Of a stretch of DNA of 64,000 nucleotides, positions 48,523 to 60,800 are shown piece by piece. Below the pieces are notes generated by a model, which was not told the origin of the DNA, did no database searches, and saw only the letters and a program-made list of their open reading frames with translations. Position 1 is the first letter of the stretch. Each line of letters starts with the position of its first letter. The position numbers and the translations under genes are program-made. Origin of the DNA: Agaricus subrufescens (lineage: Eukaryota > Basidiomycota > Agaricomycetes > Agaricales > Agaricaceae); assembly GCA_029945375.1 (NCBI GenBank), contig CM057057.1:1178001-1242000 (forward strand), read 5' to 3'.

Positions 48523-48531
48523 TTCTGTACT
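48523..48531 (+). repeat. Target-site duplication, left copy (9 bp)
   Basis: TTCTGTACT lies directly outside the left terminal inverted repeat. The identical nine bases lie directly outside the right one at 60792-60800. Confidence 0.92.
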
Positions 48532-48571
48532 GGGCTACCAGAAATACGAGGGGCCCGCGCGCGGACGCGGG
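48532..48571 (+). repeat. Left terminal inverted repeat
   Basis: Pairs with 60752-60791. Core of 30 bp with three mismatches (positions 8-10), then a CpG-rich extension. Confidence 0.9.
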
Positions 48572-48700
48572 CGGCCTATTCTACGCGTGTTTGTCCGCGT
48601 TGGTTTATTTCACGCGTGATTGTACGCGTTAAACAATATTGTCCGCGTGAGGCAAGGAGTACGCGGCCAGTCCGCGGGCCGCCCGCGTTTGGAAGAGAGA
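48555..48700. repeat. Left outer CpG-rich subterminal repeats
   Basis: Short CCGCG/CGCGG-containing words such as GTCCGCGT and TACGCGTT recur every 15-25 bp just inside the left inverted repeat. Confidence 0.7.
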
Positions 48701-48905
48701 CCCTGGCCCAGTCTGCGTTGGTCCCTGGCCCATGTCCCGCCCACGAACGAAATTTTTAGTCAATATATCGATGAAATTCGAGTGACTGCTATAGCCTAGA
48801 AGGACGCCTAGTCTGACAGAAGTAGAAACAGCGGCCAGTAATGTAATTAAACTATGAAAACACATATTGTATAGCCCAAGATAAAAGAAATTCAACGCAA
48901 AGGTC

Positions 48906-49469
48906 CTACGGACCGACCAGCACTGTGAAAGCCAAGTTCTCGGCTACCTTACACTGTCCGTGATACGACTGCTTGTTGATACCACCGCGAAAACTTGGTG
49001 GTATCCCGCGATCTTTCGGGGCATGGATACCTCCTACATGCCTACCGATGTCGTCAAAAAGGCGGATTGTCGCGTGCAATGCCCTCGATGACGAGCCCGG
49101 TGCGCCAGAAGAGTGGAAGTTAGATCTATGCACCCCCATTAAAACCGGGGATCATAATAAATCCAACAGGGCGTACCTTATTTGTGCCCAAAGCGGCCCG
49201 GTAATTTGTTTTTTCGCCGCATATCTAATAACCTTCGGCCAAACGGTAACAATGGCTCGCTCAACTGCATCATCCACTTCTTTCATACGAATAGAAGCGG
49301 CAGTCCGGCTAGCAGTCGCATTGGTGAGGCGATAGATCGGGACATGGATTTGAGTGGAGCTAGCTCTATGGGACAGGTTGAGACAGGGTGGGCGCGTGAT
49401 AAGATTAAGGTGGGGGAGCGAGCAGAGAGGCGGTCCAATAGCGGACAAAAAACGCTGTAGCGATCTCAT
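48906..49469 (-). CDS. Small transposon-borne gene, 170-aa hypothetical protein
   Basis: Two exons (49177-49469 and 48906-49125) with a canonical 51-nt intron (GTACGC...GCATAG) join in phase to 170 residues, starting MRSLQRFLSAIGPPL. The N-terminal 40 residues are basic, Ser/Pro/Leu-rich and could be a mitochondrial targeting peptide. The middle (KEVDDAVERAIVTVWPKVI) is a predicted amphipathic helix; the C-terminal part (RLFDDIGRHVGGIHAPKDRG) is hydrophilic. I do not recognise it. It lies inside the element, transcribed outward towards the left end, and could be cargo or a captured host fragment. Confidence 0.5.
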
Positions 49470-49774
49470 GGGTGGTATAGAACGATGGTTAGTGAGGAAA
49501 GAGCAAGAAAGAGACAAACAAGTACGCACCTTGAGATATATTAAATGGACAAATAGCTGCGTACAAGAACTTGGATAATCGGGTAAATATCAGTGTACAA
49601 TTGGATTAACAAGGCATCGGAAGCTTTGGACTGCAGATACGGCCTACGCCTATGTGCACATACGACAATTGCGCTCACAAACTATGACCACCCTAAAAAA
49701 AGCAAGCTAGTTACCAAATTCAACGAAGATCACATACCTATAAATATATTGATTGACCGGATAACAAGAGCTAT

Positions 49775-50095
49775 TGAGTCTTGTCCGCGTCGAACCCGCG
49801 CCTTCAGTGTGAGTCCGCGTCGAGCCCGCGCGAGGGCATCATACGACTGTTAGCCCGCGTGAGGTCCTCGTCATGTCCGCGTCGATCCTCATTGGTCCGC
49901 GTTGGTCCGCGTCTGCCCGCGCGCACTCCTCGTTGTGTCCGCGCCTATCCGCGTGAGTCCTCGTGAGTCCTCGTGAGGACAAGTGAGTCCGCGCACTGCC
50001 CGCGTGAAACCCTCGTTGACTCCGCGTAAAAACAGGGAACGTCCGCGTCTGTCCGCGTCTGTCCGCGTCCTGCCCGCGCATAACCCTCGCAAACA
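49775..50095 (+). repeat. Left inner GTCCGCG repeat array
   Basis: About ten exact GTCCGCG words, plus near matches such as CCCGCG, ATCCGCG and ACTCCGCG, in 320 bp, mostly in the same orientation and interleaved with gtcctcgt. They sit directly upstream of the transposase promoter. Confidence 0.85.
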
Positions 50096-50226
50096 TAACT
50101 TCTTATTTATTAATGTGTCCATTGCAGAGCCAGGATTTCGGCGCGACGGCCGAATCTACGTCCCAAAAAGGGATGTGAGCAATGGAGAGACATAATCAAA
50201 TAATTTGATACCTACACACACAGGGG

Positions 50227-50234
50227 TTTATAAA
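50227..50234 (+). promoter_or_regulatory. TATA box of the giant transposase gene
   Basis: TTTATAAA, about 66 bp upstream of the proposed ATG at 50300. Confidence 0.55.
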
Positions 50235-50299
50235 ATTTTTTCAAGACACCGCCGCAGTATCAACCGTAAGGGTCTTGATAGATCTGTGCCACCGGCTAA

Positions 50300-53200
50300 A
50301 TGGTATTAGACACTCATCATTAACAAGAGCGATAACTCACACTGCACCACCGCACAGGATTTCATCCGCCATGTTGTCAAATACTTTAGAACACAATCCG
50401 AGTCTCGCGAGCCGCCTGACGGACAAACCCAGCAGAACGCAGCGACAGGACCTGCAATATTAGCCCAGCATATTGCAGCGACAGGACCTCCGGCATTGAC
50501 TCAGCCGAACAATGCGACAGGACCACCAGCATTAACCCACCAGAACGATGCGAGCGCTCCCCAGCACAACCAGGCGACACGACCTCCAGCAATAACTCAG
50601 GAGAATAGTGCGACCGCACCTCCAGTCTTAGCCCTGCAGAACACCGCACCTCCAGTCTTAGCCCTGCAGAACAGCGCGACAGCCCATCCAGTCTTAGCCC
50701 AACCTCCAGCAATAACTCAGGAGAATAGTGCGACCGCACCTCCAGTCTTAGCCCTGCAGAACAGCGCGACAGCCCATCCAGTCTTAGCCCAACCTCTGGC
50801 AATAACTCAGCAGAATAGTGCGACCGCACCTCCTGTCTTAGCCCAGCAGAACCATGCGACACCACTGCAGCAGAACCATGCGACAGTACCTCCAGCATTA
50901 ACCCTGCCGAACAAAGCGACAGCACCGCCAGCAATGGGGGCACTGGTTCCAATATGGTCAACTACGGGACAAATTGTTGGATATAAAGTTCTTCCCGACG
51001 ACAAGGGCATGGAAGTAGTTCTTCAGACCCCGGAACCTGCCCCTCCTGTGGCCAACACCCAAGCAAGTAGCGCCTTGTCTCTGACCATACCTGAGGCTGA
51101 GAAGGAAAACCGACCTTCTGTAATTGATGGCCAGCATTCCCCCACTGCTGAGGACTTTCCTATCGACTTAAAAACTCGACCGCCACCACCCAATTGGGAT
51201 GGGTGGCCCGACAAAACATGGACTCACCTGTTCACATGGGAAGAATATGTCAAGACTGGGCGGCTGAGGTCGCAATGGGCCAACAAGCCAGGCACTTCCA
51301 GGCGAGGCTCTCGAACGGCTGAACTACCGAGGGAGGGCGTGACCACTAAACGCACATGCCGGGGCGTATTTGTTTGTTCCACCAAAGGTTGCACCAATCG
51401 TCTTCGTCCTCATGTTGATACCAAAGTCATTGAAGAGCAAAAGACAAAAGTGGCCTGTGAAATGTGCAGTCAGCCATTTGTCTACATCGAATGCAAAACA
51501 TATGACAAATTGACCCGATATCACGCTGGGTGCTTGTACCAACATTTCGGCACCCACAGTCATGACCGTCCCCCCATCAACAAACCCCTCCCATGGGATG
51601 CTGACCGTTTCAAGGAGCACGTCCTTGCACATCCAGAGGCGACTCCGGCCCAGCTCCGTGTGGGCGTCTCAACTTTGACAGGACGAACACCACCTGTCTC
51701 CGACATCTCTGATGCATATATAAACACGGATAGGGTGGCCGTTCAGCGGAAGAAGATTATTGACGAGTTTAAGCAACCTTCGGGAGGCGATGATTTCATC
51801 CAACTACTCCAGCAATTTGACAGCCAATACCCCGGGTTCATCTTGTATGATTCTATCCAACTCCTTCCCAAATGTGTCATTGTTCTTCAAACTCCGTGGA
51901 TGAAGGAGCACAGTGTTCACAACTCGACACAGGACGAATCTCTCAATGGGATCGTCACCGACGGCGCCCATGGTTTCTGGAAGAGCCGAGCTGCCGTTCT
52001 CCAAGTCTCTTCTGTCTACTCCATGGCACTTGATCGTTGGATACCAGTGCTTATGGCGTACATGAATGGTCACAGCGCGAACGAATTCAAAGTTTATTTC
52101 TTGAGTTTGTTTCGAGGTATCGCTGACGTTGTTCAGTCGCGAGGAGGGGGCGAGGTGGAAACACATCTGGCCTCAGTGAGTCGTGGTTTAAAGGATTAAC
52201 GGGATTACACTCACTTTAGGGATAAGGTGATGGACTTTAGTCAAGCCCAGCGTGAGGGTTTCATACTCGCTTACGTCGAGTTCTTCTCCAACCCTGGGGT
52301 TGAAGATCGCGATCGTATAACGCTTCGGATGCGTGCGGAATCTCTACTCAAAGGCTGTGCTGAACATTTCCGACAGGCGATATCTCGAGTTGCTGTTAAA
52401 CATGCCGTGGTGGATCCGACGAAGCACGACGACTTCATGACACGTGCACTCAAGCTCGCGCAAGTTTCCTCATATGATGAATACGAAGACATTGCGAGAC
52501 GGTTAATCATTGAGTTTCCCCGTACCGGCAAGTTCCTCGAGTGGTGGTTAAGACCGTCGATAGCTAGTATGATCATGAAGAGTCAGCGGGCAATGGAAGA
52601 ACAACTCTGGCACTCCTTACCGGACACCACAAACGCGCAAGAAGCCAACCACTGGGCCATGTATCAAGCGGTCGGTACTGATCATTCTCTGTTGTCGGGC
52701 TTGGAGGCACTGTATGCTGTCGTGAACAACTTCCAAAGCTCCGAGACCGCGGCCAAAAGTATGTGTTATTTGCCAGCGGCGGATTGGTCACTAATAACCA
52801 TTCGAAGACGGTCAAAAAAGTCATTATGGGTCTGTCACCCGCGAAAAGCGTATGGCCCTGGAACACGGGCGCTCACATCCTCGTCGCGATCCTAATACTG
52901 AACGTCCCTACGTCAATGACGGCCGCGCCCCAGACACCATGAAGAAGTTGGTAGGGAAGACGCCTCTGGCCAAACAACAAAAGCAGGCTAGGATTTTACT
53001 CAGCGACACCTTCGGATCGATTTACTTCCAGTGGAAGGAGAACTCTTGTTGGCTTGATGTTAGCTTGACGTTACTGGACCAAGCCCTCTCTAGAGGTTGG
53101 GAAGAGTACGTGGACGTTTGTGGGTCTCTTACATACGACGAAACCAAGGGAAGGACTTTTGCTGCCATAGAACGTATTAGGGCCCAGAAAACCAGCCCGG

Positions 53201-56200
53201 AGCAAGACTCCAGTATCACCGAACCTTTGAATCTCCAGCGCGACCTCATTCGCCAATACTTGTTGCAAGAGAAAATCATCACGAGCCTGAAATCGCCTGA
53301 CATGGTGTTTGTGAGAGCCCAGTATCTTATACAAACTACAATATCTCTTACCTTGGCATTCAGGGTTGGTTGCCATCGCTTCTTCGTCGAGTTCTCGCAG
53401 CGAAGTCTGACAGTGACCATGGGCGCTCGGTTCCGTATTTTCTGCCCCTCTACTGCGATATTCATGACTGCACCGGCGGCACAAGTACGGATGGGCCCCA
53501 TCTGGAATTATCGCCTTCTCTTCAGCCACTATACACAATTCAACTGGGGCCAGGAGAACATGAAAAGTACAAGGGCCGCCTAACCGCGTGGTTTAAGGAA
53601 TTTTTGGATCTTCGAGCGCAAGCCGGTCTGGACTGTTGGAGAAGGACTGAGCAAGACGGGCTACTGTGTACGGGGAAGCGGACCGATTATCCACGCTATA
53701 TTGTTTCACTACCAGTGGTTTTTGTAGTGGAATTCGTCCAAGATGATCTCCCGAAACCCTGGGAGTGGTACATACCACCGAAATTGAACCCTCCTCCGGC
53801 GGCTCACAACAAGACGCACAATCTGGTTTACGATCTTGTGGGGGTGAGCATCGTCGCAAACAATGTAACGAGTAATCATTTCACAGCTCGCTTCTATGAC
53901 TCCGAGGATAAATCAGTCTACGTCTACAACGACATGGACTTCAGTGGCCGGGCACAGTCCCTCCGTGATGGTGTCTTGTCCAAACATGTTGCGGGCTATC
54001 CTGTCGTTCTTCCCTCCCAGCAGGCCGTTCACCACGCTGTTTATTACCTCAGAGGCGGCTTGGCGGCACAGCATGCTTTTTATCAAACGCGTCTGGCCAC
54101 TCTCAGGAAAAAGTTTAAGATATCAGTGGTACCAGACTTCCCTTGCAATGTGGCATCAGTGTCGTATACTGGCAAGTTGGTCTTACTACCATCCGTCTGT
54201 CGTTATTGGATCAAGACCCCCAGGAATCGCAGCCACTTAAACGAGTACGCTGAAGTGACGCAGGAGGCGAAATTACTACGTGATGCCGCCGCCACTCCCC
54301 CCCCACCTGAATCAGAGGATACAACTGCTGGGCCGGATGACTCAGTAAACGATCAAAGCAAACTGCGTTCGATAGATGAGCTGTACGCTCGTGTTCAGTC
54401 TCCCCAACACGATGAGGATGACCTTCCATCTAACCCTGCCGATTGGACTCCACGTGAAAGATCTCAAGTTCCCGAGAAACCAGCATCCAAGAAATCTAAG
54501 GGTCGTACCAAAAAAAGCAAGAACGGCAAGGGACGGAAAGTTCGCTCTCAGCGCAAGCCACCTCGCAAAATTCGCAAACCTCGCCCTCCGCCTTTTCCCA
54601 GCCCCTCTCCCCAGCAGCCTGAGCCTGACCAAAGGACCCTCGAACGGAGAGAAATACTTGAACTGATAAAAGAGGTGGACGCCCTGGCAGACGCTGATGC
54701 GATGTCCGACGGCGAGATGTCCGAAGCGCTGAACTCGGGACCCCCTCGGTTGCGGTGTCGTTGTGGATTGACTGGAGACCCCGTGGATATTCTGGCGTTC
54801 GCCCCTGCCGAGGGTGAGCTACAGCAGTGCTCTGGTTGCAAGCAGTTAAGCCATCGTGCTTGTCAACCTGATGGGCTGCCGATGGGCCGCAACTGGTTAT
54901 GTTTCCGATGCTCAGGTCCTGACATCGCGACACCCAAGATGGAGGTCACTCACCGAAGGTTCGTTTTACCAACTCCTCCACAGTTCACTCATGCTCAACG
55001 CTGAGGGTCGGTATAGGATGTTGAGCAATGTTTGGCTAGTCTCACACCCGTTGCGAGAACGTCTTCGTCCTGGCCTGGGGGCGCTTTGTCGATTAGGCGA
55101 CTTCCATTACCCTGTGCGCTTGCTGGGGTACGATCCTTCCAATCGTAGTTGGACCGTCCAGTGGTGGCGCGGTTGTGACTTCTTCAAACAAGGACCAACC
55201 CGGCTGCGGGATGATATAACCTCCGAGCCAGAAGCCAATATCACCGATGCCCTGTGGGGGCAGACCATGTCGCGCCGTAATATTCGGGTGAGTGGACGGC
55301 GTCTGACCCAGCATCCGTATTGAATTTCGACAGCTAGGACGTTGGGCACTGGCCTCGCTATTGGAAGAAGATACTTTGGATTATCTATCGGAGGTGGACT
55401 ACATGGAATACACCGCAGCAATAGACGATGCTTTGTACCCGCATATTCAAACCCTTCAACTTCTGGTGGCACCAGCCGACTCGATGGACGCAACCGAGAT
55501 TCCTGTACTTCAAAGGGCGCGTGGTATACGAGTGAATACCTTTAACCACGTAGTCAAGGACGCGGCTCGGGGGGCGATACCTCTACACGAACAAGCGGGT
55601 ATTACAAACTGGCTGCACCTGCATCTCGTCGACGCTCAACGGAACCAGTGGCAGACGGGACCGACTATGTGCCACGCTTGCACTCTTTGGATTGCATATA
55701 AGCTGGAGAGAACAGGTTGGCAGAAGGAGGAGGGCGTTACATGGATAGAAGAAGCGTGGCGACTACAGACGAACACGGGGCGGGTCAATCGGGAAGACGT
55801 CAACCGCCTGTGTATAAGCAAATTGGAACGGTTGATGTTTGAGTTTTCGAATAATGCAGGGACAGCTGGTGATTATATGTGGGGATTGAACTTGGGTGAT
55901 CATCAAGGGAGTTGGAATCCGTATCCTCTGGTGCCCTCCTCTTGGATCATCCGGGACCATGAGCCTGATTCTCTCAATGACACGGTATGTGTCGTTCACT
56001 TTCTTATGTCCGTATCACGTACGCAGTGCTGCCTATTGACCATGACCATCGTAGCTCGGATGGGACTATGTTCAGGTTGAAAATGGTCATGAAAAGGGTA
56101 AGATTAAGGAAGAGGAAGTACAGATTAAGATAGAAGCAGACGCAGTGAAGGAGGTGTTTACTAAAGAAGTCTCTTCGGTTAAAGATGAGGAAGGAATTAA

Positions 56201-56396
56201 ACGCGAGGACATGTATAACGAAACAATCGAGGTTAAGGAGGAAAGGGATAGCGAAGATAGCGAAGACAAGAAAGAGATTACGGAGGCCCAGGTGGAGGGG
56301 AAAAAGCGCAAGAGGTCGTCCGATCCAGAGGATTGGGCCGCGGCGGCTGGCCGCGGAAAAACACGCGGACGTGCACGCGGGCGAGGGCAAGGGTAA
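50300..56396 (+). CDS. Giant transposase fusion: GCM-type Zn finger, MULE-like DDE core, USP-like protease, PHD finger
   Basis: Proposed start is an ATG-only first coding exon (50300-50302) followed by an intron to 50359 and DFIRHVVKYF. Exons then join in phase to 56396, roughly 1,870 residues. Order: repeats of QNSATAPPVLA type; a zinc finger (GVFVCSTKGCTNRLRPH, CEMCSQPF, ending FGTHSHDRPP); a transposase core with VTDGAHGFWK, VMDFSQAQREGFILAYVEFF and TTNAQEANHWAMY; a 49-nt intron near 52760 leading into a ubiquitin-protease-like domain with ENSCWLDVSLTLL (Cys box) and VYDLVGVSIVANN...NHFTARFYD (His box); a Lys/Arg-rich linker; a PHD finger (CRCG...CSGCKQLSHRAC...WLCFRC); and, after two more introns, a Lys/Glu-rich tail ending in GRARGRGQG. 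It could also be two genes if the 52760 joint is wrong. The catalytic triad is not certain. Confidence 0.7.
50580..50870 (+). repeat. Coding tandem repeat in the N-terminus of the transposase
   Basis: Units starting acctccagcaataactcagg at 50582 and 50702, and acctctggcaataactcagc at 50792, each encode PPAITQENSATAPPVLALQN-like text. The spacing is 120 and 90 bp; the first unit carries an extra 30-bp subrepeat. Shorter 30-bp-class repeats extend from about 50430 to 50930. Confidence 0.85.
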
Positions 56397-57552
56397 CATG
56401 GAAAGCGTAACTGGAATGCGAATGCGACAGACTTAGAGTAGCTGTAAGTAGATGAGAGAGGTGATCAGAAGTGCACCCTTGTTTGACATAACAGTATGCA
56501 TACCTAAGTAAATACTCTGTGAGTGTTATTGAGAGGGGCCCCGACCCCGCGCGCCCAAGCATGACGACGAGGGCGCGGACGAGGGCGCGGAGTTGTCTGT
56601 TAGTGCGCGGAGTTGTCTGTAGTGCCCGCAAACACCGCCAAGATCAGGCCTGTGAGGAACTATTACGTGCACGCGGGCTGCCTACAACATCTTCGTCAGC
56701 CGTGTACAACAGGCCCATTCCCTAGCCAACTTACGGTAGGTATTATAGTCCGCATAACCAATCATGGTGTGTTTCCAAGAATGCGGATGAGCACGCGGAC
56801 GAGGACGCGGACGAGGACGCGGACGAAGACGCGGACGAAGACGCGGACGAAGACGCGGAGATTTTGCAGGAGGCCAGTGTAAGTCTGTCGAGTAACCCCG
56901 ACGAGGACGAGGACGCGGACAAGAACGCGGAGGCCCATGAGGCCAATCGCTGTTGAAGGGTAAAGACGTATACAGCTTGACAAAGGACATAGCGGGAGGG
57001 TAGACTCTAGAGAGGGCCCAGTAGTCCAGGAGGGTAATGGCTCTAGAGAAAACCTAGTGGCCAACAACGATCGCCCGAATGCAAGCGGGCACTACGACTC
57101 TAGAGAAGCCTAGAAATCGTGGTGGATGGTAAGCATTAGAGATAGAAAGGATCGGTTAAGCGGTTGCGCGCTCACATGACTTAAACGTAATAGAACGCGT
57201 AACCAAATATAGGTTACCAGCCCCCTGCCTTTATCTTCATCACCCACATCCTCTGACCAGACCGTACAAGACGGTTTCCAAGTGCACGTGTATCTCGAGG
57301 GTATCGTATCAAGTTAGAATTTTCCGGTTGATATATTAATGCGCAATACTCACTTTGGTTCTCACATAGGCCCGCCCTCGCCCTCCTCGGACTCCTAGCA
57401 TTCCTGCGCATCCACCACACTGTTGTCTACTGGTCTTCATCCAGAGGCTTACTGTTCTGGAGACTACTGGAACCTTACAGAGTCTCCACATTAACCCAAT
57501 TTGGTTCACTGCACAGTCCATCGACCCCCTCATTGCTCGGCCCGTTCGAAAA
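56397..57552. other. Spacer between transposase and unknown gene
   Basis: 56535-56930 is rich in GCGCGGAC and ACGCGGACGAGG repeats, in the opposite orientation to the left array. From about 57360 the frame leading into the next gene is open (RLTVLETTGTLQSLHINPIWF), so its 5' exon probably lies here. Confidence 0.55.
56535..56930 (-). repeat. Right inner CGCGGAC repeat array
   Basis: Includes five 12-bp units, acgcggacgagg (2) and acgcggacgaag (3), at 56793-56860, and looser gcgcggacgagg copies at 56550-56620. It is the reverse-complement form of the GTCCGCG word of the left arm. Confidence 0.85.
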
Positions 57553-60341
57553 ATGACGACATCGGGTTCTTCTAAGTGGATACAGAAGGCGCCCGAAGGC
57601 CTGGCCACCATTATCGATGGTGACATTTACTTTTCGCCGAACTGTACTCGGCCTTTGAAATCGGCTCCGAGGCCCAACACTCCGTGGAGATTCGTCGAAA
57701 GTGTCTCCACCGCTGCCGACTTTCAAGAGCCTCGGTGGTGGACTCCTGGTACTGAGTGGTTGGGGTTTGTACCGAAACAACCTGTGCCCTATACGGGTGT
57801 TTGGTTCGGGCCGTTAGGCATTATCCCGAATAAACTATTGTGCGATAATCACACCGAGTATAGCTTACCAGCTTTCTACAGTGATAAATGGCTCGAAATC
57901 GATTACATGTTATGGGAAACATGCGAGATCCTGCGTGAGTCCCATGGCTTGCAATATGCTCTTCCATTCCCGCCTCGCCGGTGGTACTATCATAAACCTT
58001 TTTCGTCATGGACCACGGCCATGGACCACATCACAAAAGGTCGAGACTGGTTTGCCATGTGGGTGGGCTTGTTATACTGGTCAACGCGAAAGATCCCAAA
58101 TGGTCCGGACTTCGCTGAAGGTCTAACCCCTCCAGAATGGTTTAAAACTGTCGTGTTTAAGAGATCCAACAAAGTAAATGGGTCCAATGTTGATGCCATT
58201 CGCACCTCGCAACTTCTCCAAAATTGGTGGCAGATCGATCGCGTTGGTTTGGTTTTGCATCATCCTTCGGATGCCCCAGGCCAACCGACAGCGCAGTGGT
58301 TCGTTCAACATAACGTACCCGTATGGTATCGCTGGGGAGAAAGAGAACGCCGCACCTGTAAAAAAGGTTCCTTTGACCTCATAGCTCCTTCTTCCGAGCA
58401 ACTTCAGAATGCCACCACATATATCTCATCATCCGTCTTATCTGACCATTCTCACAATATACAAACCTCATCCTTCTGCCACCAAAGCCTTAGTCCGGAA
58501 CCGCAGGATCACTTTGACTACCATCCCCCTTCTTCACCCCTTCCTGCCACGTCCTCAACCCCCGATCCTTCGACCCTGGCTCCACGCGCTGTAACATCCA
58601 ATGACAGTCATCCAAAGGAACGAGTATGGATCAATCATCTTGGAGACCCGGTTTGGGACTATGGATCCGGACGGTCGGTATGGGAACCCTTCTTCAAAAA
58701 GCAGGAAGAGAGGCACCAGAGATTGCTTCTGAAGGAGAGCGCTAAGACTAAACAAGCACGGGAGTCCCGGATGAGGCAGCCGCCAAGGACCTCATGCCCT
58801 GTATTTGTCTGGGATTGGGATGATGCAGAACCTCCAAAGTTTGTGAGGACACGCGTACGAAACGACGAACGAGAAGACACATTGAATGGCTATAGCGACA
58901 AACAGAAGAAATACAATGCCTTCGACAACGAGTGGGATTGTTGCCGAGAGTGGGGTGAAGATGCCGATGAAGAGGACTATGTAGAACCACTACCTCCGCA
59001 CCTTTTGCCTCAAAAAACTACCTCAGAGCTCTTGTCCGAACGCTTGAGCTCTGAGGTTGGTCGCTTGCTTTACGAATTCTATGGATGGGTGATGCCGCTA
59101 CCTCTTCCGGCTCCTGACAATCATATCTGTTGGATTCCCGAAGACGGTAGGAAATCCTTTAAGGCTATACTCGGGCTGCAGTCAGCACCAGTCGACAGTT
59201 CTTTCTTCTATTCTCCCTTGGCAAAGGCGGCGTTCCCATTCGTCCAGCTTCTGGCAGGAAAAGATACCATGAGGCCTTCCAGCGACCTTTGGGATTTGGT
59301 GAAAGAGAACCGTTTGGGTTTGGCGTACACCACCACACTGAAATGCATTCGAACTCTAAAGCGAAAGGGTGATACCTGGTATATGTTTGACTTTGATAGG
59401 CATCGAACAGTGCCGTGGAATATTGCTGTGCCCACTGCCACAAGTGCCCTATTGGTATGTCGTCTGAAAGAGAGGCTGGATGAAGCAGCAAAAGATAGGC
59501 TTGACGAATCAGCGGTGGCGCGGGAGTTATTGATGGAAGGGGTTCGCTTCCACACTGTCTCTCGTCGTGAGGACCTGGGGGTCGCCGATGCAGAGGAACC
59601 GTGGTCGACTTATGTGCCTATGCGATTATCGGACCACGCTTTTTCCATCGAGGATCTCAATTTATATCAACGACAATGCGGACAAATTATGTCTTCTCCC
59701 AGGGCTCGTGCTGCTCTGATGCGGGGAGGCTTCGTACGTCGTCGAGCACTGGAGTTCATGCACCCCTCTGAGGCTTTGCGAGGTCCCTGCGGTACTTACG
59801 AAGACTCACGCAAGATGTTCATCGCTCTTGACGTCAATGGCATCGAATATGTTGATGACGAGCTCACTGATGAAGAATATGATCTACTCTCTGGTGTGTA
59901 TCTTAAGTTTACTGGTAAGTCACCATTATACAATACATCATGTTGGCTGAGGCTGATATTTACGCAGGCGATAACTTACACACTGCCAAAGTGTCTTGGC
60001 TTCCGCAATGCTGGGTGTTCGAGGGCTGTGGTCTGGATCTAGGTCGCTGGACAGAACATGCAGAAAGGTTTTGGGAAAAGCGTACTGAGGCTGTGTTTCG
60101 CGATAAGGTGGGGAACTCAGAGGCGCCTCTCAACTGGCAAAAGCGTATAGAGGCCGCCAACTCCCAGCCGACGAACACTGTGGATCTTGGTAATATCCGC
60201 AGTGCTGGAAAGCTAGGCCGACCTCTCAATGTAACCGAATGGCGATCGAATCTTCGCGGTCTTGGGGATGCCAGACGAGCATGGTCCAAAGTGGAGTTGT
60301 GGTCGAAGGAGTTCATATCTCATCATGTCGTAAATATGTAA
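57553..60341 (+). CDS. Large transposon-borne protein of unknown function
   Basis: A long exon from the ATG at 57553 (MTTSGSSKWIQKAPEG) joins through a GT-AG intron (donor GTAAGT at about 59914, acceptor GCAG at 59968) to a final exon ending SHHVVNM at 60341. The total is about 910 residues. It is rich in Trp (PRWWTPGTEWLGFVP, QNWWQIDRVGLVLHHP, PVWYRWGERERR). The middle is charged and low in complexity (NEWDCCREWGEDADEEDYVEP), and the C-terminal part has WLPQCWVFEGCGLDLGRW. No catalytic motif is visible to me. Similar Trp-rich proteins are, from memory, frequent in Agaricomycete genomes, often near transposons. The frame is open upstream of the ATG with a hydrophobic stretch in another frame near 57370-57470, so a membrane-anchored 5' exon may be missing. 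Confidence 0.65.
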
Positions 60342-60751
60342 CTCACGTTTGTTCGTCTCTTGTACTTTATGTATGTCTTCTTGTTGTTATATATGGGGTT
60401 TATGAATCATTGTGAAGGTCCCGCGCCTTGCCCGCGCCAGGGTGGCTCATGTCCGCGTGATGTCCTCGCCTGTTCGCGTGCAGATAGAAAAAGTTTTGGC
60501 TGTCCGCGCCCTGTCCGCGCCTGTCCGCGTGACTTACTCGCCCTTCCGCGTCAAATTTTCATAATTTTCATATCTCTTTAAGGTGGGTGAATGGACTCTT
60601 CGAGCACTCTATAAATGCTTTAAAGTAATAGGCAACATGCATATGTACTGTATAGTATCGACCGAACCTAAGATTCGGTCCGTTATATTATCTTCATCCG
60701 CTTAGTGATCCCGCGCTTCCTCCGCGTCAAACCCGCGCGTGTACGCGGAAT
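60342..60751. repeat. Right arm of the transposon, GTCCGCG repeats
   Basis: 60420-60560 and 60710-60750 contain repeated GTCCGCG, CCCGCG and TCCGCGT words, mirroring the left outer array. No coding frame. Confidence 0.75.
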
Positions 60752-60791
60752 TCCTCGTCCTCGCGCGGGCCCCTCGTATTTGCTGTAGCCC
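60752..60791 (-). repeat. Right terminal inverted repeat
   Basis: Reverse complement matches 48532-48571 (34 of 40 positions; 27 of 30 in the outer core). Confidence 0.9.
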
Positions 60792-60800
60792 TTCTGTACT
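60792..60800 (+). repeat. Target-site duplication, right copy (9 bp)
   Basis: TTCTGTACT, identical to 48523-48531 and directly adjoining the right inverted repeat. Confidence 0.92.

Follow-up and report, generated by a model that had tools for sequence, protein, structure and literature searches.

A 12.26-kb element with two predicted genes in Agaricus subrufescens, probably a MULE-like DNA transposon

Mutator-like elements (MULEs) carry the catalytic residues D-D-E, the E being preceded by a C(2)H motif, and WRKY-GCM1 zinc fingers occur among them. The MULE Mutyl of the yeast Yarrowia lipolytica is described as 7,413 bp long, with 22-bp terminal inverted repeats (TIRs) and open reading frames of 459 and 1,178 residues (PMC2725143, PMC6446971), and complete MULEs of arthropods are reported to span 1.4-10.0 kb (PMC13359780). 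For transposons of the Kyakuja-Dileera-Zisupton (KDZ) type, the reported target duplications are 8 bp in Zisupton and Dileera and 7 bp in Kyakuja (PMC12730594). Ubiquitin or SUMO proteases and PHD fingers have been described as joined to several transposase lineages (PMC2836005). Here we analyze a 64,000-bp stretch of the Agaricus subrufescens genome (the window, C1:1178001-1242000) together with the whole 44.65-Mb assembly in 44 contigs, which are cited by number (C1 and so on). Positions 48532-60791 of the window (C1:1226532-1238791) constitute a complete TIR DNA transposon of 12,260 bp with two predicted genes, A and B. It probably moves by cut-and-paste, with gene A supplying a DDE transposase of Mutator-like (MULE-like) type. 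Among the open-access papers listed in literature searches, none describes this element in its title or abstract; subscription papers and Repbase lay outside that search.

Both ends of the element can be placed to the base. The 9-bp sequence TTCTGTACT abuts it on each side and occurs at those two sites only across the window on both strands; in shuffled versions of the window it appears 0.43 times on average and at least twice in 8 of 100 shuffles. An earlier note, made from the letters of this DNA, had called the locus a complete 12.26-kb TIR transposon with a perfect 9-bp duplication, with inverted repeats of ~30-40 bp and with a size and coding content unusual for a fungal cut-and-paste element, and each of these statements holds. 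Lengths of 12-15 kb are large for a MULE, given the range reported for complete arthropod elements (PMC13359780).

Further copies with duplications of their own, which the note had proposed as one means of checking its reading, are present in the same genome. A 24-nt end pattern, allowed up to 3 mismatches, matches 90 ends across the genome (the reversed pattern, used as control, matches none), and these fall into two types, L (beginning GGGCTACCAG, n=37) and R (beginning GGGCTACAGC, n=53). Pairing all facing L and R ends within 20 kb of each other gave 30 candidate elements, 13 of which are flanked by an exact duplication (9 bp in six, 10 bp in seven), compared with 0 of 720 mismatched end combinations tested for exact 9-10 bp duplications. 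Because two of the 13 share identical flanks, the number of independent sites is 12. Each of the eight large elements (7.8, 7.8, 9.8, 12.06, 12.06, 12.26, 12.6 and 15.0 kb) has a duplication, and the remaining five pairs with a duplication, of 607-645 bp, look non-autonomous. Three L-R units of 2,111 bp (C1:952225, C5:2869808 and C29:12564) have common flanking bases on both sides and no target duplication, which suggests a segmental duplication rather than three insertions.

To look for unoccupied target sites, we joined the two flanks of each of nine other insertions and searched the same genome with them. For six of the insertions an uninterrupted paralogous site runs across the junction (Table 1). 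The target stands there once, matching the duplication exactly in four cases and differing from it at one position in another case and at two positions in the last. No empty paralogous site was found in the genome for the remaining three, namely the short C11 insertion, the short C3 insertion and the 12.06-kb C3 insertion. Precise insertion is thereby demonstrated for the family; for the window copy it follows from its own duplication.

The earlier note had also taken the intact duplication as a sign of recent movement, a claim that stands for the family and less directly for the window copy. Two siblings of 12,055 bp, at C5:1800461-1812515 and C3:3617489-3629543, show 0 differences over the 7,655 bp compared (6,155 + 1,500) and are flanked by different duplications (GTATCTGGT at the C5 copy, GGTAGTTCGC at the C3 copy). 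Since these siblings are identical over the compared length and lie at different sites with different duplications, the family has moved recently. The window copy has no near-identical twin in the genome: its DNA identity over long matches is 85-91% to the C9 sibling, 78-90% to the 9.8-kb C5 copy, 64-85% to the 12,055-bp C5 copy and 67-76% to the C11 sibling, and its synonymous divergence (dS) from the nearest compared relatives is ~0.13-0.19. The evidence that this copy itself moved recently is its intact duplication only.

Table 1. Positions of features in the window, and empty sites of related insertions.
Feature	Position	Strand	Remarks
Target-site duplication, left copy, 9 bp, TTCTGTACT	48523..48531	.	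sequence match
Left TIR, L type, GGGCTACCAG...	48532..48570	+	39 nt, 87% complementary to right arm
Left subterminal TCCGCG-type array	49732..50091	+	12 TCCGCG; 1000 base shuffles gave 0.23 on average and at most 3
Gene A model, 1,919 residues, open	50310..56396	+	exons 50310-52175, 52227-52758, 52808-53310, 53364-54958, 55017-55287, 55334-55984, 56055-56396
GCM1-like zinc-finger region, residues 346-422	51345..51575	+	PF03615, E 0.004 and 0.002, below cut-off
Proposed catalytic core	51960..52643	+	D551 51960-51962, D625 52233-52235, C666-x2-H669 52356-52367, E761 52641-52643
Peptidase-like region, Cys box NSCWLD to His box NHFTARF	53047..53879	+	Cys 53047-53049, His 53877-53879; weak UCH
PHD finger of gene A	54750..54920	+	PF00628, E 0.033 (window, below cut-off); E 0.00018 in P0015
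GACGAGGACGCG-type minisatellite between genes A and B	56775..56935	.	repeat search
Gene B model, 911 residues	57553..60341	+	exons 57553-59914, 59968-60341
Right subterminal TCCGCG-type repeats	60429..60551	+	six TCCGCG in last 500 bp
Right TIR, R type, GGGCTACAGC... read inward	60753..60791	-	39 nt, 87%
Target-site duplication, right copy, 9 bp, TTCTGTACT	60792..60800	.	sequence match
Empty site for 15.0-kb C9 element	on C1		98%
Empty site for 9.8-kb C5 element	on C9		83%
Empty sites for 12.06-kb C5 element	two sites		81 and 79%
Empty site for 7.8-kb C11 element	on C1		83%
Empty sites for two short elements	C13; C10		100%; 96%

Gene A was modeled with six GT-AG introns of 46-70 nt, whose boundaries are also GT-AG in the C9, 12,055-bp C5 and C11 siblings. 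Intron 4 was placed at 54959-55016; an alternative at 54916-54958 was rejected, its GT being missing in two of three siblings. The N-terminus of a relative aligns with the model from QDFIRHV on, and comparison with it established no exon upstream and did not fix the start codon. From N to C terminus the predicted protein comprises Pro/Gln-rich repeats, the GCM1-like zinc finger, the D-D-C(2)H-E residues, the Cys and His boxes, the PHD finger and an acidic, RG-rich tail. The Pro/Gln-rich repeats are in frame (50426-50921 in the window) with a spacing of 36-66 bp. The length of exon 1 varies among siblings by multiples of three once an insertion nested in the C9 copy and the broken C11 copy are set aside. 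This nested insertion, which interrupts exon 1 of the 15.0-kb C9 sibling (C9:2519651-2534603), is another transposon, of 2,759 bp and 38% G+C; its inverted ends are similar, and TCTCTGA flanks it left and right. The C11 sibling is open in the middle of gene A (1,553 residues compared), with frame breaks earlier in the first exon and in the last exon, and the 9.8-kb C5 copy is without the middle of the gene. With intron 4 as placed above, three regions of gene A have ratios of nonsynonymous to synonymous divergence (dN/dS) of 0.15-0.20 when compared with C9 and of 0.10-0.15 when compared with the 12,055-bp C5 copy.

Relatives of gene A occur in Agaricus bisporus and Lentinula edodes. In homologue searches the Pro-rich first exon returned one match and residues 285-1180 returned four. 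Within the genome, a 177-residue query from the core exon has at least 15 matches and a whole gene A relative at least 53; all genome match counts given here, for either gene, are lower bounds.

The residues D551, D625, C666-x2-H669 and E761 would form the catalytic core of the predicted transposase. Their positions are kept in the Agaricus relative P0013 and the Lentinula relatives P0015 and P0016; an intron separates D551 from D625, and ~41 residues lie between the second D and the C(2)H motif. Downstream, the UCH profile matches the window protein with E 0.037 and the C11 sibling with E 0.0034, both below the 23.9-bit cut-off, and the C98 profile matches P0016 with E 0.075. Residues C80 (in NSCWLD) and H339 (in NHFTARF) of this segment are invariant across six aligned sequences and are putatively the catalytic Cys and His. 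A profile search of solved structures with the family profile matched no solved peptidase structure. A UCH/USP-like (C19) or USPL1-like (C98) peptidase in gene A is therefore a weakly supported suggestion. The PHD finger is recovered more clearly when the family profile is used in the search of solved structures, where it matches Bye1 with E 1.4e-9. Three other low-scoring matches were judged to be chance: zf-HC5HC2H_2 (E 0.29), Virulence_fact in the C11 sibling (E 0.029) and Zn_ribbon_CSL in the Lentinula relatives (E 0.0096-0.091).

The protein predicted from gene B is 96% identical to that of the C9 copy; dN/dS is 0.088 for this pair and 0.131 in the comparison with the 9.8-kb C5 copy (C5b). 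It has relatives in Agaricus bisporus, Leucocoprinus and Leucoagaricus, one JGI protein and, weakly, in Ephemerocybe. A distant homologue (36-38% identity) lies at C1:1160749-1163430, on the contig of the window and ~15 kb ahead of it. No Pfam family was found for its N-terminal 292 residues, its first exon or the relative P0005. A predicted model has a mean predicted local distance difference test (pLDDT) score of 64 and gave a best Foldseek E of 3.2, with none at 0.001, and the profile search of solved structures yielded no solved relative (best E 2.9). TET/JBP dioxygenases have a conserved HxD metal-binding motif; such an identity was rejected for gene B, whose sole HxD (residue 320) is not maintained across an alignment of 12 sequences.

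Is gene B part of the element's machinery, or is it a passenger or an independently mobile gene? Several observations favor the latter. A 787-residue gene B query has at least 82 exon-level matches in the genome, and the gene A core exon has at least 15, although the two queries differ in length (787 and 177 residues). Merging exon rows by hand gave 23 gene B loci at ≥57% identity and 27 at ≤42%, and none of the 27 distant loci has a family end within 12 kb. One distant unit of 7.67 kb, present at C4:3103327-3110995 and on C11 (97.3% identical), carries an 822-residue frame homologous to gene B, has termini unlike those of this family (it begins CATCAGTG and ends TATACTCA), contains no gene A, and has ATA on both sides of its C11 copy. 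On the other side, gene B is found downstream of 12 of the 15 gene A core-exon loci, in nine of them at 5.3-5.6 kb (it was not found at the loci on C36, at C6:1557577 and on C11), and its dN/dS values indicate purifying selection. Moreover, an R end lies within 3 kb downstream in six of the 23 closer gene B loci and any end within 12 kb in eight. As the other 15 also have no recognizable end, the pattern used to find ends is perhaps overly strict, which makes their absence near the distant loci weak evidence. That gene B is no component of the element is thus possible, though we doubt it.

The two genes of the window copy do not relate to the 12.06-kb C5 copy in the same way. Protein identity is 83% for gene A and 63% for gene B. 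At the DNA level the copies are 80-85% identical as far as roughly the end of gene A, and 64-79% identical beyond it. Within gene A, dS rises from 0.29-0.33 to 0.78 at residues 1400-1800. From these patterns, the right halves of elements may have been exchanged between lineages.

To place the element, we compared it with MULEs in terms of the target duplication (~9 bp, 8-11), TIRs, the residue pattern, a 25-residue signature, the PF10551 profile and the zinc finger. The duplications have MULE length (9 bp in the window, 9-10 bp in the family), the TIRs (39 nt, 87%) are a trait of most MULE groups, the putative catalytic residues follow the expected order, and a GCM1-like finger is weakly matched. 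Several results weigh against a complete MULE-like transposon: (i) The MULE profile PF10551 has 0 matches in the genome at E ≤ 10 and is not among the Pfam matches of the window protein. (ii) The 25-residue MULE (Eisen-type) signature D-x(3)-G-...-C-x(2)-H, as given in the available description (PMC2725143), is absent from the 1,919 residues of gene A. (iii) In the window protein, GCM, UCH and PHD all score under the Pfam cut-offs. (iv) A structure model of the Lentinula relative P0015 (5 sequences) reached a pLDDT of 29 and is of no use for a DDE or peptidase fold. (v) An exact 9-10 bp duplication is lacking in 17 of the 30 end pairs; one of these (C4) is off by one base and one has a 7-base match, and two 8.1-kb pairings without a duplication combine the ends of two neighboring short elements. 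(vi) The joined flanks of the window copy match nothing in this genome but its own two flanks, and hence no empty site turned up for it. (vii) The dN/dS of gene B is below that of gene A against C9, yet not against C5b. (viii) Mobility is deduced from ends, duplications, empty sites and conserved reading frames, and no transposition was observed. The link to MULEs offered in the earlier note is accordingly retained in part: because PF10551 and the signature are unmatched despite the duplications, ends and residue order, we call the element MULE-like and do not file it as a MULE.

The same two mismatches, together with the spacing of ~41 residues that separates the C(2)H motif from the second D, would fit a rival reading in which the element is no MULE and belongs to another DDE superfamily, either undescribed or strongly diverged, whose resemblance to MULEs is limited to duplication length and residue order. 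Set against this are 9-10 bp duplications like those described for fungal MULEs such as Mutyl (PMC2725143), the GCM1-like zinc finger and the D-D-C(2)H-E order, and we regard such an origin as unlikely. A KDZ-type transposon, the other link considered in the earlier note, would fit the large size and the abundance of KDZ elements in this genome, but it is extremely improbable here, as none of the 94 genome matches to the KDZ profile PF18758 lies in the element and the duplications are 9-10 bp rather than the 7-8 bp reported for KDZ elements (PMC12730594). Many of those 94 matches fall in near-identical sets.

If the element is MULE-like, its parts suggest how it might work. In gene A, binding and cleavage of the ends would fall to the GCM1-like zinc finger together with the D-D-C(2)H-E core, and the protein would also join the ends. 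The TCCGCG motif occurs 15 times in the first 2 kb and six times in the last 500 bp, with none between in that orientation, and the opposite orientation occurs 13 times in the middle of the element, mostly inside the minisatellite. The arrays inside both ends are possible protein-binding sites. The peptidase-like region may act by removing ubiquitin or SUMO, histone tails may be read by the PHD finger, and both parts might help the transposase in chromatin, in repair or via protein modification. By analogy with second genes of MULEs such as the anti-silencing VANC, gene B would be an accessory factor for transposition or expression. The 0.6-kb relatives are probably moved in trans. A bolder proposal, which we put forward with little confidence, is that these elements form an undescribed clade, conceivably a superfamily of their own, of giant mushroom transposons. 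Their transposase of ~1,900 residues would include its own deubiquitinase or deSUMOylase as well as a PHD finger that reads histones, and their gene B would serve in escape from silencing and would have spread within this genome to other mobile elements. A mushroom element that combines such a fusion with defined ends, with intact genes and with identical twin siblings would make it testable why proteases and PHD fingers are joined to transposases. Gene B, for its part, represents a large conserved protein family tied to mobile elements.

Among described systems, Mutyl resembles the window element in being fungal and in having short imperfect TIRs, 9-10 bp duplications and two open reading frames (PMC2725143, PMC6446971), whereas the window element has 12,260 bp, 39-nt TIRs and predicted proteins of 1,919 and 911 residues, and the available descriptions of Mutyl mention no peptidase or PHD finger. 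Rehavkus, likened here by its description, shares a 9-bp duplication, a PHD finger in the transposase protein and a minisatellite in the element; it is reported from arthropods and annelids, and its minisatellite precedes the 3' TIR (PMC6446971). A ubiquitin or SUMO peptidase within a transposon protein is also described for the Ulp1-carrying MULEs (plant KIU/Kaonashi, hydra and lancelet) and for Ginger1, among which Ginger1-9_HM resembles gene A in its PHD finger as well (PMC2836005, PMC13317346). Their peptidases are described as Ulp1 or OTU, whereas the weak matches of gene A are to UCH and C98. A Trichomonas protein that joins Transposase_11 to Peptidase C19 is likewise a fusion of a DDE-type transposase and a C19-type peptidase, with a different type of transposase and no PHD finger mentioned in the available account (PMC2836005). 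Finally, the fungal DNA transposons that carry TET/JBP genes are, like the element described here, mushroom elements with an extra gene common to several transposon lineages; they differ in that MULEs are not among the eleven lineages listed in the available text (PMC12730594) and in that gene B is without a conserved HxD.

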